DNA of 64,000 nucleotides. It comes from Anaerolineae bacterium. GTDB taxonomy: Bacteria > Chloroflexota > Anaerolineae > Anaerolineales > Villigracilaceae. The notes beneath the pieces are model-generated. The model searched no databases. It had not been told where the DNA came from and saw only the letters and a program-made list of their open reading frames with translations. A program made the translations under genes and the position numbers. Location: contig JAKLPV010000085.1 in the NCBI GenBank assembly GCA_022013685.1, positions 1 to 64,000 of the forward strand, given 5' to 3'. Shown here piece after piece: positions 51,739 to 60,539 of the stretch (its first letter is position 1; the number at the start of each line of letters is the position of its first letter).

Positions 51739-52542
51739 ATGTCAAAAATATTTACCCGTACTTTTCGTGTGCGCTGGTCTGAGTTGGACGCCAGCGGGAC
51801 CGTCGCCCCGGCGGCTTATCTGCGTTACCTGGTCGAAACTGCCTACGATTGGGGGGACGCGCTTGGTTTGGGAGCCAAAAACGACCGGCTGCTCGGCCTG
51901 TTCTGGCTGATCCGCGAGACCGAGATCCGCTTTTTGCGCCCACTGCGTCACAACGACGTTTTCGACTTCACCATCTGGATGGTCAACTGGCAGCGGGTGC
52001 GCGGCACGCGCTGTTTCGAGCTGACCCTCAAAGACAGCGGCGAAGTCATCGCCCAGGGCAGCCAGCACATCGTCGCCATGGACGCCCAAACCGGCCGCCC
52101 GGCCAGCCCGCCCGAAGAGAGCATCGACAACTTCCGTCTCGACCAGCCGCGCATCTTCCCGTTCGAACGCTTCCCCAAAGTTGCCGCGCCTGAAAAGCAG
52201 TTCGTCATGCAGCGCCAGGTGGAATGGGGAGATTTGGACGCGCTCGAGCATGTCAACAACGCGATCTACGTCACCTACGCTGAAGAAGCCGCCGCACAGG
52301 ACCTCGCCACCCGCGGCTGGACTCCCGTCAAACTGGCCGAATCCAACTTGACGGTTGCCACGCGCCGCGTCCACATCCAATACCTGTCTCCGGCGGTCTG
52401 GGGCGAAACTCTCGCGATTTCGACCCACTCGCTCTCCGCCAGCGACACCGGCGGGACTCGCTACGTCGGCATGGCCCGCGCCGATGGCTTTCCCGTCTGT
52501 GAATGCATCCTGGACTGGGAACTGGTCGAAAGAAAAAAATGA
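51739..52542 (+). CDS. Acyl-ACP/acyl-CoA thioesterase, double hotdog
   Basis: FRVRWSELDASGTVAPAAYLRYLVETAYDWG and QVEWGDLDALEHVNNAIYVTYAEEAA. Confidence 0.85.
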   Translation: MSKIFTRTFRVRWSELDASGTVAPAAYLRYLVETAYDWGDALGLGAKNDRLLGLFWLIRETEIRFLRPLRHNDVFDFTIWMVNWQRVRGTRCFELTLKDSGEVIAQGSQHIVAMDAQTGRPASPPEESIDNFRLDQPRIFPFERFPKVAAPEKQFVMQRQVEWGDLDALEHVNNAIYVTYAEEAAAQDLATRGWTPVKLAESNLTVATRRVHIQYLSPAVWGETLAISTHSLSASDTGGTRYVGMARADGFPVCECILDWELVERKK

Positions 52543-53792
52543 CCCTAAAAAAAATCGTCGCCATCCTCGGCGGCGGCCCGGCCGGCCTGATGGCCGCCGA
52601 AACGCTGGCCGGGCGCTCAGAGATCGAAATCCATATTTACGAGGCCATGCCTTCGCTTGGACGAAAATTCCTGCGGGCCGGGGTTGGCGGGCTGAACCTG
52701 ACCCACTCCGAACCGCAGGATGCGTTCCTTGCCCGCTACAGCCAGCCCGAGCGCCTCGCGCCGATGCTGCGCGCCTTTGGTCAGGAACAAATGATCGCCT
52801 GGGCCAAAGAGCTCGGCTTTGAAACCTTTACCGGCAGCTCCGGGCGGGTTTTCCCGGTTGGCATGAAAGCCTCGCCCATCCTGCGCGAGTGGCTGAAACG
52901 ATTGACAGATTTGGGGGTGGTTTTTCACACAAATCACAAATGGATTGGCTTTGCGGACTCGAAAGTCTCCCGACTTTCGACACTCCAACATCAGGAAACG
53001 TTGGAGTCCATCGTATTTGATACCCCTGATGGCCCGCAAACCGTCCCGGCAGACGCCGCGCTGCTGGCCCTCGGCGGAGGGAGCTGGCCGAAGCTGGGCT
53101 CGACCGGCGGCTGGATTCCGATTCTCGAAGCCCGGGGCATCCCGGTCGCGCCGCTCAAACCCGCCAACTGCGGCTTCGACGTGGCCTGGACCGAAGTTTT
53201 CAAAACCAAATTCGACGGCGCGCCGCTTAAATCGGTGACACTCACCTTTGGCGAGATTTGCAAACAGGGCGAGTTTATCGTCACAAAAGATGGGGTCGAA
53301 GGCAGCCTGATCTACGCCCTGTCCGCGCTCCTCCGCGACGAGATCGAGCAAAACGGACAGGCGGTCATCCACCTCGACCTGGCTCCCGATTGGACTCAGG
53401 AAAAGCTGATTAACCGGCTGTCCCTGCCGCGCGGCTCACGCTCGATGGGCAGTCACCTCGAAAAAACGGTCGCCATCAAAGGGGTTAAAGCCGGGCTGCT
53501 CTGGGAATTTGTCCCGCGTGAAGACTTCCAATCCCCCGCGAAGTTGGCCGCGGCCATCAAAAACCTGCCCATCCCGCTGACCCGCCCGCGCCCGCTGGCG
53601 GAAGCCATCAGCAGCGCGGGCGGAGTCCGTTTCGAGGCGCTCGATGAGCACCTGATGCTTAAATCCCTGCCGGGTGTCTTTTGCGCCGGGGAAATGCTCG
53701 ACTGGGAAGCGCCGACCGGTGGCTATCTGTTGACCGCTTGCATGTCGACTGCCGTCTGGGCCGCAAGGGGAATACAAACGTACTTGCAGTAA
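52539..53792 (+). CDS. NAD(P)/FAD-dependent flavoprotein (TIGR03862/BaiN-like), carrying an in-frame palindromic insert
   Basis: ILGGGPAGLMAAETLAG, LGRKFLRAGVGGLNLTHSE, GGVRFEALDEHLMLKSLPGVFCAGEMLDWEAPTGGYLLTACMSTA. Confidence 0.92.
   Translation: MTLKKIVAILGGGPAGLMAAETLAGRSEIEIHIYEAMPSLGRKFLRAGVGGLNLTHSEPQDAFLARYSQPERLAPMLRAFGQEQMIAWAKELGFETFTGSSGRVFPVGMKASPILREWLKRLTDLGVVFHTNHKWIGFADSKVSRLSTLQHQETLESIVFDTPDGPQTVPADAALLALGGGSWPKLGSTGGWIPILEARGIPVAPLKPANCGFDVAWTEVFKTKFDGAPLKSVTLTFGEICKQGEFIVTKDGVEGSLIYALSALLRDEIEQNGQAVIHLDLAPDWTQEKLINRLSLPRGSRSMGSHLEKTVAIKGVKAGLLWEFVPREDFQSPAKLAAAIKNLPIPLTRPRPLAEAISSAGGVRFEALDEHLMLKSLPGVFCAGEMLDWEAPTGGYLLTACMSTAVWAARGIQTYLQ
52955..53009. repeat. Structured palindromic element (family 2), copy A, intragenic
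   Basis: GGACT-CGAAAGTC(TCCC)GACTTTCG-acac-TCCAACATCAGGAAACGTTGGA-GTCC. Confidence 0.75.
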
Positions 53793-56560: not shown

Positions 56561-56637
56561 TAAATGGTGGATGGTAATTGGTAATTGGGTGTGGGCGAAA
56601 ACAAATCCCAATTACCAATTACTAATCGCCAATTACT
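56561..56637. repeat. Inverted pair of heptanucleotide arrays
   Basis: GGTAAAT GGTGGAT GGTAATT GGTAATT ... CCCAATT ACCAATT ACTAATC GCCAATT. Confidence 0.6.
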
Positions 56638-57589
56638 CAAATAACCCCGGCCTGAGCAGCTTCGCCAGGGCTTCGAGGCCGTCCACCAGGCGCGGGCCGG
56701 GGCGGCTGACCAGGTTGTCGTCGAAGGGGAAAACCTGTCCGTTTTTGACGGCGCTCAGGTTCTCCCAACCGGGACGTTCGGCGACCGATTCGACGGTCAC
56801 ACCCCACATCGAGTCACCCAGGATGATGAACATCGGATCTTCAGCCACGATCTGCTCGATGCTCAACTGCGGGTACGCGTCAAGGTCGGCGGCGATGTTC
56901 TTGCCGCCGGCGCGACCGATCAGCAGGGTGATGAAAGTTCCTTTGCCGGCGGTATAAGGCTGGGCCGGATTGCTGGCGTCGATCTCGTAGAAAACGCTGA
57001 AAACCGAGCTGAGCGGAGCGATCTTCTCATCCACGGCGGCGACGCGCGCTTTGAGCGATTCGACCAGTGCTGCGGCTTCTGTTTCGCGCCCGGTCAGTTG
57101 GGCCACGGTTTCGAGGTTGGTATACATTTCTTCGAGTGTGGTTGGGTTTTTCAGGTAGAAAACCGTCAGGCCCAAATCTTCGAGCGATTTAACCAGTTCG
57201 GAGGGGTTGATCTCAGCCGCCAGCACCAGATCGGGCTGCAGGGCGACGATCGCCTCGAGGTTGTATTCGCCCATCGAGCCGCCGATATCGGGCAGGGACA
57301 GGGCCTCGGCGGGATAGTCCGAGAACAGGTCGCGGCCAACCGTTTGCCCGCCCGCGCCGATCGCGAACAGGATCTCGGTGTTGGAGGGGGCCAGCGAGAC
57401 GACTTTTTGGGCCGGTTCCGCGAGAATGACCTGGCGGCCAAGCCCGTCGGTCAGCGAAACGTTGTTCGATGGCGTGGGCGGAAACAGGGAGGGCGCTTCA
57501 GTGGCCGGGACTGTGGGGGTTACGGCTGGGGTGCAGGCGGCCAGGAGCAGGGTCAATGCCAGTAAGGGAAAAGTGATCTTACGAAACAT
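56633..57589 (-). CDS. btuF: Cobalamin/iron-siderophore-type substrate-binding lipoprotein (BtuF-like)
   Basis: Lipobox LLLAACTP; QKVVSLAPSNTEILFAIGAGGQTVGRDLFSDYPAEALSLPDIGG. Confidence 0.9.
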   Translation of the reverse strand: MFRKITFPLLALTLLLAACTPAVTPTVPATEAPSLFPPTPSNNVSLTDGLGRQVILAEPAQKVVSLAPSNTEILFAIGAGGQTVGRDLFSDYPAEALSLPDIGGSMGEYNLEAIVALQPDLVLAAEINPSELVKSLEDLGLTVFYLKNPTTLEEMYTNLETVAQLTGRETEAAALVESLKARVAAVDEKIAPLSSVFSVFYEIDASNPAQPYTAGKGTFITLLIGRAGGKNIAADLDAYPQLSIEQIVAEDPMFIILGDSMWGVTVESVAERPGWENLSAVKNGQVFPFDDNLVSRPGPRLVDGLEALAKLLRPGLFE

Positions 57590-57751
57590 GGGTGAATTCT
57601 CCTTGGAGATATTGTCTGAAGGGCGAAGGTCAAAACCTTCAATCACAAAGGCCACAAAGTGTCACAAAGGAAAACCAAAATAAATTTTCGGCGTGTTACG
57701 TTGTTACCGTTGTGGAAAGGTTTTTATGTACAGCAAAACACAAATCAAAAT

Positions 57752-57779: not shown

Positions 57780-57940
57780 TCGGGAGGGCAAGTCTGATGA
57801 AAAATCGCCGTTCCCACCTCCTTTCGCGAGAGAGTGGTACGAAAACGAATAGTGCGGGCGACCTGGCTTGTTCTTTGCAGAACTTACAGTTGCGCGACAG
57901 CGCCGGACTTGCACCGGCTTCGCCGCATCCATTCGTTTAT
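57780..57940 (-). promoter_or_regulatory. Cobalamin (B12) riboswitch
   Basis: Minus strand: gaatggatgcggcgaagCCGGTGCAAGTCCGGCGCTGTCGCGCAACTGTAAgttctgcaaagaacaAGCCAGGTCGCCCGCac, matching the conserved core and B12-box; upstream of btuFCD. Confidence 0.9.
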
Positions 57941-57958
57941 TCAGTTGTGAAAAAGATT

Positions 57959-59210: not shown

Positions 59211-60539
59211 TTAAAACACAGAAACCCCATGTTTTAATATCAAAAGCATGAACCAGTACAAAAATCCCGGCAGGCCTTTAGGCGCAAAGAACAGGGTGCG
59301 GGATGTCTTGCCCTCGGGCGTAATGCCGCACTCGAGCCATAACTCGCCCGGCAGGTTGCCCTGCGCCTTGAGCAAAAGAGACTGAGCGTAGTCGAAGCCC
59401 CCCTCAGCCTGTGATACCGTTTCCCAGCCGCTCACAAGCGGAAGTTTTTTGGACCGCAATATCTCCCGATATTGCAGTTTTCCAACGTCGGGAGACGTTG
59501 GAGTCCGCGCCAAAACCCGGTAATCAACCAAGAACCCCTCATGCTTCATGCGCACATGCTCCCGGCCAGAATCCAGCCAGACGCGCTCGATCCGTCGCGG
59601 GTCAAGGTCGGCCAGGGACCGACGCACGGCCTCGGCGTAGTCCAATGGCTCGATCAACGGGAACAGGCGCCGGGCGGTTGGTTCCAGCACCAGGCTGTCG
59701 TTCTGAAGTCCCTCGACGAGCGGAAGCGCGTACGAGAACTCGACGGGAGTCAATTTGTCGATCATAAAAGCCATCACGACCGGCGGAATAAACGGCAGCA
59801 GCAGGGTTTTGCGTTTCAAGCCGCGGATCCGGGCGAATTCTTCCATGACTTCGATGTAGCTGCGCGATTTTTCGCAGCCCAGTTCGATGATTTCGCCGCG
59901 GCATTCGGGTGCGACCAGGGCCGCCAGCAGATATTCGATGATGTCGCTGGTCGCGATCGGCTGCGAGCGGTGCCGCAGCCAGTCTGGTCCGACCATCAAC
60001 GGGAATTGCTCGGCGATAAAGCGGATCATCTCAAAAGAGACGCTGCCCGGCCCGGCGATCACCCCGGCCCGGAACTCTGTGACCGGTACCCCCGCTTCGC
60101 GCAAAGCGACTCCGCTTTCGATGCGTGAGAGCAAGTGCATGGCCAGTTTTTCGCGCGGGTCGGCCAGCCCGCCAACGTAAATGATGTGCTCGACCCCGGC
60201 TTTCTTTGCCGCCCCGGCAAAATTGCGCGCCGATTCAAGGTCGATGCGCTGGTAGCCATGCCCGGCAGCCATGCTGTGGATCAGGTAATAAGCCGTGCTG
60301 ACGCCCTGCATCGCGGCCGACAGGCTTGCGGGGCGGGTCACGTCTCCGGCCACGACCTCAACCTGCGAGAACCAGGCGCGATGACGCAATTTCTGAGGGT
60401 CGCGCGCCAGGCAGCGCACCTGGTATCCGTTTTCGAGCAGGCGTGGGATCAGGCGGCTGGCGATATAGCCGGTTGCTCCGCTAACGAGGACGAGGGGGTT
60501 GGGTGATTTTGTAATTAGGTGATTAGGTGATTTGGTCAA
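59211..60539 (-). CDS. SDR-family NAD(P)-binding protein with shortened DUF2867-like C-terminus, carrying in-frame repeat inserts
   Basis: VLVSGATGYIASRLIPRLLENGYQVRCLARDPQKL; paralogous to 60678-62174. Confidence 0.85.
   Translation of the reverse strand: MTKSPNHLITKSPNPLVLVSGATGYIASRLIPRLLENGYQVRCLARDPQKLRHRAWFSQVEVVAGDVTRPASLSAAMQGVSTAYYLIHSMAAGHGYQRIDLESARNFAGAAKKAGVEHIIYVGGLADPREKLAMHLLSRIESGVALREAGVPVTEFRAGVIAGPGSVSFEMIRFIAEQFPLMVGPDWLRHRSQPIATSDIIEYLLAALVAPECRGEIIELGCEKSRSYIEVMEEFARIRGLKRKTLLLPFIPPVVMAFMIDKLTPVEFSYALPLVEGLQNDSLVLEPTARRLFPLIEPLDYAEAVRRSLADLDPRRIERVWLDSGREHVRMKHEGFLVDYRVLARTPTSPDVGKLQYREILRSKKLPLVSGWETVSQAEGGFDYAQSLLLKAQGNLPGELWLECGITPEGKTSRTLFFAPKGLPGFLYWFMLLILKHGVSVF
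59381..59410. repeat. Family 1 palindrome fragment, intragenic
   Basis: ACTGAGCGTAGTCGAAGCCCCCCTCAGCCT; encodes EGGFDYAQS in frame. Confidence 0.6.
59451..59506. repeat. Structured palindromic element (family 2), copy B, intragenic
   Basis: GGACC-GCAATATC(TCCC)GATATTGC-agttt-TCCAACGTC(GGGA)GACGTTGGA-GTCC. Confidence 0.78.

Follow-up and report, generated by a model that had tools for sequence, protein, structure and literature searches.

REPIN-like hairpin doublets in an Anaerolineae genome, most likely spread by a single-strand DNA transposase found in its relatives

Closest described systems

The closest described counterparts of the element considered here are the REPINs, which together with the RAYT/TnpAREP transposases constitute the REPtrons of Pseudomonas, Stenotrophomonas, and E. 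coli. As in those systems, we find short hairpins with a conserved foot, their arrangement as inverted doublets, a RAYT that is bordered by its own repeats and whose profile matches PDB 4ER8, and no target duplication. Unlike in the REPtrons, the foot is GGAG/GGAC (theirs is GT[AG]G), the loop is fixed but the stem sequence differs widely from copy to copy, the RAYT has an NHYH motif and relatives in several uncultured phyla, and the genome under study has lost its RAYT. A further parallel is offered by the Rickettsia palindromic elements (RPE) and the CGTC-tagged REPs, which are likewise in-frame palindromes in protein genes, tolerated as extra peptide, and whose doublets encode about 20 aa (PMC3733652); in contrast to these, the tag here is GGAG/GGAC, the phylum is another one, and a cognate RAYT has been found. 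Unusual non-GTAG structures that lie beside a transposase gene and recur elsewhere in the genome are also known from TnpAY1 class 3 and subclass 2.6 (PMC6006769); class 3, however, combines a CnGA foot with a Y----Q motif, whereas the RAYT described below has Y---NP (class 2, by motifs).

The published feet are GT[AG]G, CGTC, and CnGA (PMC6006769, PMC3733652), and GGAG/GGAC differs from GTAG/GTGG, CGTC, and CnGA. We found nothing in the literature that joins these repeats to Anaerolineae. The system is a variant within the RAYT/REPIN systems and not a new kind; where descriptions have relied mainly on GTAG repeats, it contributes GGAG/GGAC as a further foot class, as well as a RAYT clade.

Two in-frame copies and their host genes

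A sequence-only reading of the window, a stretch of 64,000 nucleotides from an Anaerolineae genome, had quoted a 56-base element together with a second, related in-frame copy. Both exist: the former lies at 59451-59506 on the minus strand (copy B), and the latter at 52955-53009, within the HI0933-like gene 52503-53792(+) (copy A). The features are listed below, with scores from R1, a covariance model of the single hairpin unit that was built from 26 units.

52503..53792, plus strand: copy A host gene, HI0933-like flavoprotein, 429 aa (Pfam)
52955..53009, plus strand: copy A, complete doublet with units 52955-52980 (+) and 52984-53009 (-), in frame, encoding ADSKVSRLSTLQHQETLES
59211..60539, minus strand: copy B host gene, NmrA-like NAD(P)-binding protein, 442 aa (Pfam; orthologues)
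59451..59506, minus strand: copy B, complete inverted doublet (REPIN-like), in frame, encoding RTPTSPDVGKLQYREILRS (fold, R1 matches, orthologue alignment)
59451..59476, plus strand: copy B unit 2, foot GGAC, stem GCAATATC/GATATTGC, TCCC loop on the plus strand (GGGA on the minus strand); R1 match 36.7 bits
59477..59480, no strand: copy B spacer, between both units (sequence, R1 matches)
59481..59506, minus strand: copy B unit 1, foot GGAC, 9-bp stem, TCCC loop; R1 match 45.3 bits

Copy B consists of two inverted 26-nt hairpins within the NmrA-like gene. The stem lengths given earlier are corrected to 9 bp for the TCCC-loop hairpin and 9-11 bp for the GGGA-loop hairpin. Within the window, a search with the 26-mer allowing up to 3 mismatches yielded two matches, 59481-59506 and 52984-53009, with 0 expected from shuffles. 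Folded as single-stranded DNA, both copies stand out from shuffled sequence (z = -7.45 for copy B and -4.94 for copy A). Since the inverted doublet reads alike on both strands, the “orientation” of an element has little meaning. The TCCC and GGGA loops within one element are complementary and, judging from the sequence, might kiss.

Orthologues confirm that the NmrA-like ORF is a gene, and their alignment places the insert in a hypervariable linker of the protein, after residue ~344. As its site is this variable linker, copy B falls below the threshold of our codon model, yet it is intragenic by orthology. Elsewhere in the window, the gene of a periplasmic binding protein (56633-57655) has an AdoCbl (cobalamin) riboswitch upstream (57806-57948, minus strand; 56.6 bits), the two representing ordinary B12 uptake.

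The repeat population

The two copies are not alone in the 5.28-Mb genome of the window (G000; Chloroflexota and, judging by the named relatives of the RAYT described below, probably Anaerolineales), which, like all the genomes compared, is a draft whose genes were called in the present analysis. The genome-wide 26-mer search that had been proposed gave 18 matches with up to 3 mismatches, versus 0 for a reversed control, and the R1 search gave more than 100, from which 95 units at 64 loci were retained; a few weak-scoring units are among the latter because each pairs with a strong unit. In the two-unit loci, the units are convergent in 28 of 31 cases, and nearly all of these loci measure 50 to 74 bp overall. 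Two units and their spacer read GGAG-hairpin-spacer-hairpin-CTCC, and REPINs are built in this way (PMC3116915). In the R1 seed alignment the foot is GGAG or GGAC in nearly every unit, and across units the loop TCTCCNGA is fixed while the stem sequence varies. The base directly outside the foot is C at 56%, T at 33%, and A at 2% of ends, making C or T 89% in all. The target-site duplications that the sequence-only reading had suggested looking for did not appear, there being no excess over mismatched flanks in 27 elements, and an Rfam search returned no family match at the element. All six frames are open in only 5 of 31 elements; hence, six-frame openness is not a general property of the elements.

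Covariation in the stems

As R1 was built from good hairpins, covariation measured on its matches alone would be biased. We corrected this bias with a search pattern comprising the foot and loop only (GGASTNNNNNNTCTCCNGA), with no selection on the stem, which produced 58 hits versus 0 in a reversed control; the 3' arm is readable in 57 of them. At stem positions 6 to 11 the arms pair in 52 to 57 of the 57 units, where independent columns would give 51 to 98%, and compensatory pair types are found at several stem positions; stem position 5 displays no pairing excess in the same 57 units. The feet are GGAG in 46 and GGAC in 11, GGAS being itself part of the search pattern. Because the arms pair across 15 distinct 5'-arm hexamers, it is evidently the fold that is conserved, and neither the stem sequence nor the peptide. 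The earlier proposal that a folded nucleic acid rather than a peptide is being kept is thus borne out in a test blind to the 3' arm. Such a freely varying stem also means that the recognition rule (foot, loop, and pairing) can be read from sequence alone.

Distribution and sites in related genomes

At E ≤ 0.001, units are found in 22 of 61 genomes, all 22 lying among the 37 genomes of the same family, and in 0 of the 24 genomes from other families of the order. Within the family, some genomes have no units at all, and the highest number is at least 126. Nineteen sites of the window's genome could be aligned to its congener (G001). By eye, three of these share a clear element, some carry it in degenerate or rearranged form, it is missing from about four or five, and the remainder hold unrelated sequence; most element sites are, accordingly, not conserved in the congener. 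At the site matching C94:12110 of the window's genome, the congener has a shared element in which the loop is inverted (TCTCCNGA to TCNGGAGA) and the stem kept, and the copy-B site of another relative (G003, L089) holds a variant element in which the first loop is inverted in the same way, again with the stem kept.

At 5 of 10 replaced or absent sites, those of copies A and B included, the congener has inverted repeats that rank in the top ~3% of its random windows, a ranking with hand-picked segment ends and with all windows, not intergenic or linker ones, as the control. Such unrelated inverted repeats replacing the elements are a lead and not a proof. Examples of their sequences, at the sites of REPINs C65:19139, C88:21928, and C215:12199 of the window's genome, are GTAGGGGCGACGC...GCGTCGCCCCTAC and GTTGAAGGTTGAA....

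A cognate RAYT in relatives

In one family member (G011), a 176-aa ORF is situated between R1 hairpins and passes the NCBIfam model NF047646 (REP-associated tyrosine transposase) with 106.5 bits against a cut-off of 80. When the ORF was combined with 18 relatives into a profile, a single PDB sequence matched, namely 4er8, TnpArep (E = 7e-19). The motifs of the ORF are NHYH and Y---NP; in the published table, Y---NP denotes class 2, and NHYH is listed for subclasses 2.3 and 2.8 (PMC6006769). Given its Y---NP motif, this RAYT is predicted to belong to class 2. The sequence-only reading had suspected a REP-type element with an associated RAYT, and this much is upheld by the R1-flanked RAYT of relatives; the part that fails is the window's own genome, where a cognate RAYT is missing.

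A scan of 85,462 genomes recovered 38 RAYT relatives. Eleven Chloroflexota loci (L186-L195, L203) have an upstream gene in common and represent one conserved locus; R1 hairpins are near both gene ends in nine of them (L186-L194) and on one side only in L195, and L203 is a truncated RAYT with hairpins 3' and a partial unit at the 5' junction. Hairpins of the TGGAGTGC...GCACTCC type flank more distant RAYTs as well, on one side or on both, including those of Latescibacterota, WOR-3, Zixibacteria, Planctomycetota, and Neomarinimicrobiota, an indication that the GGAG foot is a property of the RAYT clade. At about 50 other Y1 loci of the family there are no strong flanking R1 units, the G011 locus being the only exception; in L148, R1 units lie about 2 kb off the Y1 gene.

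In some genomes the RAYT sits between two conserved genes, of which one is membrane-protein-like and terminates in CACACACAGCACACAGGGR and the other is a radical SAM gene that includes a PqqD domain. In L186:1085-4933, for instance, the former has a Cys-Ala-rich tail, and the radical SAM/SPASM/PqqD protein gives a sub-cut-off match to rSAM_ACGX among others. The conserved neighbors are possibly a modified-peptide system.

Loss of the RAYT from the window's genome

The radical SAM gene of the RAYT locus is present in 25 of the 30 family genomes searched, and among these the RAYT is intact only in G011. The locus in G029 retains the C-terminal third of the RAYT, and that in G002 the last 15 to 17 residues along with one hairpin. 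In the window's genome and its congener, the membrane-protein-like and radical SAM genes are close together with no RAYT sequence between them; since both flanking genes are present side by side, the absence in the window's genome is not to be put down to an assembly gap. The NF047646 search of that genome found none over the cut-off of 80; it gave only weak hits (contigs C213 and C195), the best at 42.9 bits, with no R1 unit beside them. The REPINs of the window's genome are orphans, as the conserved locus is without a RAYT, and present mobility seems unlikely where no RAYT exceeds the family cut-off. Genomes with an intact RAYT, a remnant, or none at this one locus offer a natural series in which to ask what becomes of a REPIN population once its transposase is lost.

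The sole Pfam Y1_Tnp protein of the window's genome (L019:250-1893, G000:C20; orthologues L133-L146) was rejected as a mobilizer, its C-terminal Y1 domain being degenerate and devoid of HxH. It has an N-terminal receiver-like region and adjoins a radA-like gene. In its C-terminal (IS200-like) domain, HxH is absent in 15 of 15 aligned sequences, with YLQW or similar instead, and the family thus appears to have conserved a transposase domain that is domesticated and catalytically dead.

Origin of the elements

Taking these findings together, we propose that copy B is a REPIN that was spread by a RAYT since lost from the window's genome, an explanation to which, as a whole, we give a probability of about 0.86; the single-strand DNA transposase of the relatives most likely spread the element. 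Copy B would be a non-autonomous mobile element of two inverted REP-like hairpins with GGAG/GGAC feet and TCTCCNGA loops. The RAYT, a member of the HUH/tyrosine single-strand DNA nuclease family, would have read the foot and loop on single-stranded DNA, needing a paired stem of no particular sequence, cut beside the foot, and pasted the doublets elsewhere. Some copies might thereby have been inserted in frame in protein loops or linkers, where they were tolerated, and with the subsequent loss of the RAYT from its conserved locus the orphan copies would now decay and diverge. That the RAYT mobilized doublets is deduced from anatomy and association. In Stenotrophomonas maltophilia, TnpAREP is reported to depend on the foot, on a loop base, and on perfect pairing of the stem, with block changes of the stem having a milder effect (PMC8266576); these requirements predict the covariation seen in the stems here. 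Counting against the proposal are the lack of any RAYT over the family cut-off in the window's own genome, a foot that is neither GTAG nor CGTC, and the fact that G002, with about 100 units, is also without an intact cognate RAYT.

The strong fold with covariation would also fit if the hairpins were conserved RNA elements (attenuators, terminators, or mRNA stabilizers) with a host function and not mobile DNA. Known REPs can act in RNA, and most copies are extragenic by the codon model. We nevertheless hold this to be quite improbable: Rfam gave no match at the element, unrelated genes hold in-frame copies that run in either direction, the majority of sites lack conservation in the congener, pointing to lineage-specific sites, a single family spans copy numbers of 0 to at least 126, and the repeats are found on the borders of a RAYT. 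A conventional MITE, of the kind mobilized by a DDE transposase recognizing terminal inverted repeats, would also be small, non-autonomous, dispersed, and inverted at its ends, but it is scarcely credible here in view of target-site duplications that do not rise above chance, an associated enzyme that is a RAYT, and a variable stem at the ends around a fixed loop, which fits hairpin recognition better than the recognition of duplex terminal repeats. The lack of target duplication and the C or T outside the foot fit a single-strand nuclease with a short target preference and not a DDE transposase.

An addition to the RAYT-spread REPIN explanation, which we deem unlikely, is that the sites are exchange hot spots at which palindromes are swapped, the RAYT being one source among several. 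It draws on the inverted repeats of the congener at half of the replaced or absent sites, including both window copies, and on the variant at the copy-B site in G003; however, independent hits on permissive sites would look alike, the ranking has the hand-chosen ends and all-window control noted above, and other sites are plain absences. Bolder still, and rather doubtful, is the conjecture that a RAYT clade across several little-studied phyla goes with GGAG REPINs whose stems drift while only the foot and loop are kept, and whose sites, in and between genes, serve as points of palindrome exchange between sister species.

Copies inside genes

The codon model places 14 loci out of 64 in frame in an open gene with a coding signal on both sides, a rough count from a simple model; the in-frame copies comprise A, B, and 13 others by this model. 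They sit in unrelated genes and in either direction, and most of the 64 loci are outside genes by the same simple model and our own gene calls. In-frame REPs are already known from other bacteria (PMC3733652), and the present copies illustrate one way in which proteins can gain peptide from short mobile DNA. At the RAYT locus itself, the radical SAM ORF, as delimited by mechanical calling, seems to take N-terminal codons from the REPIN 3' of the RAYT (L186:3512-3620, with L187, L188, and L203 alike at the corresponding position).
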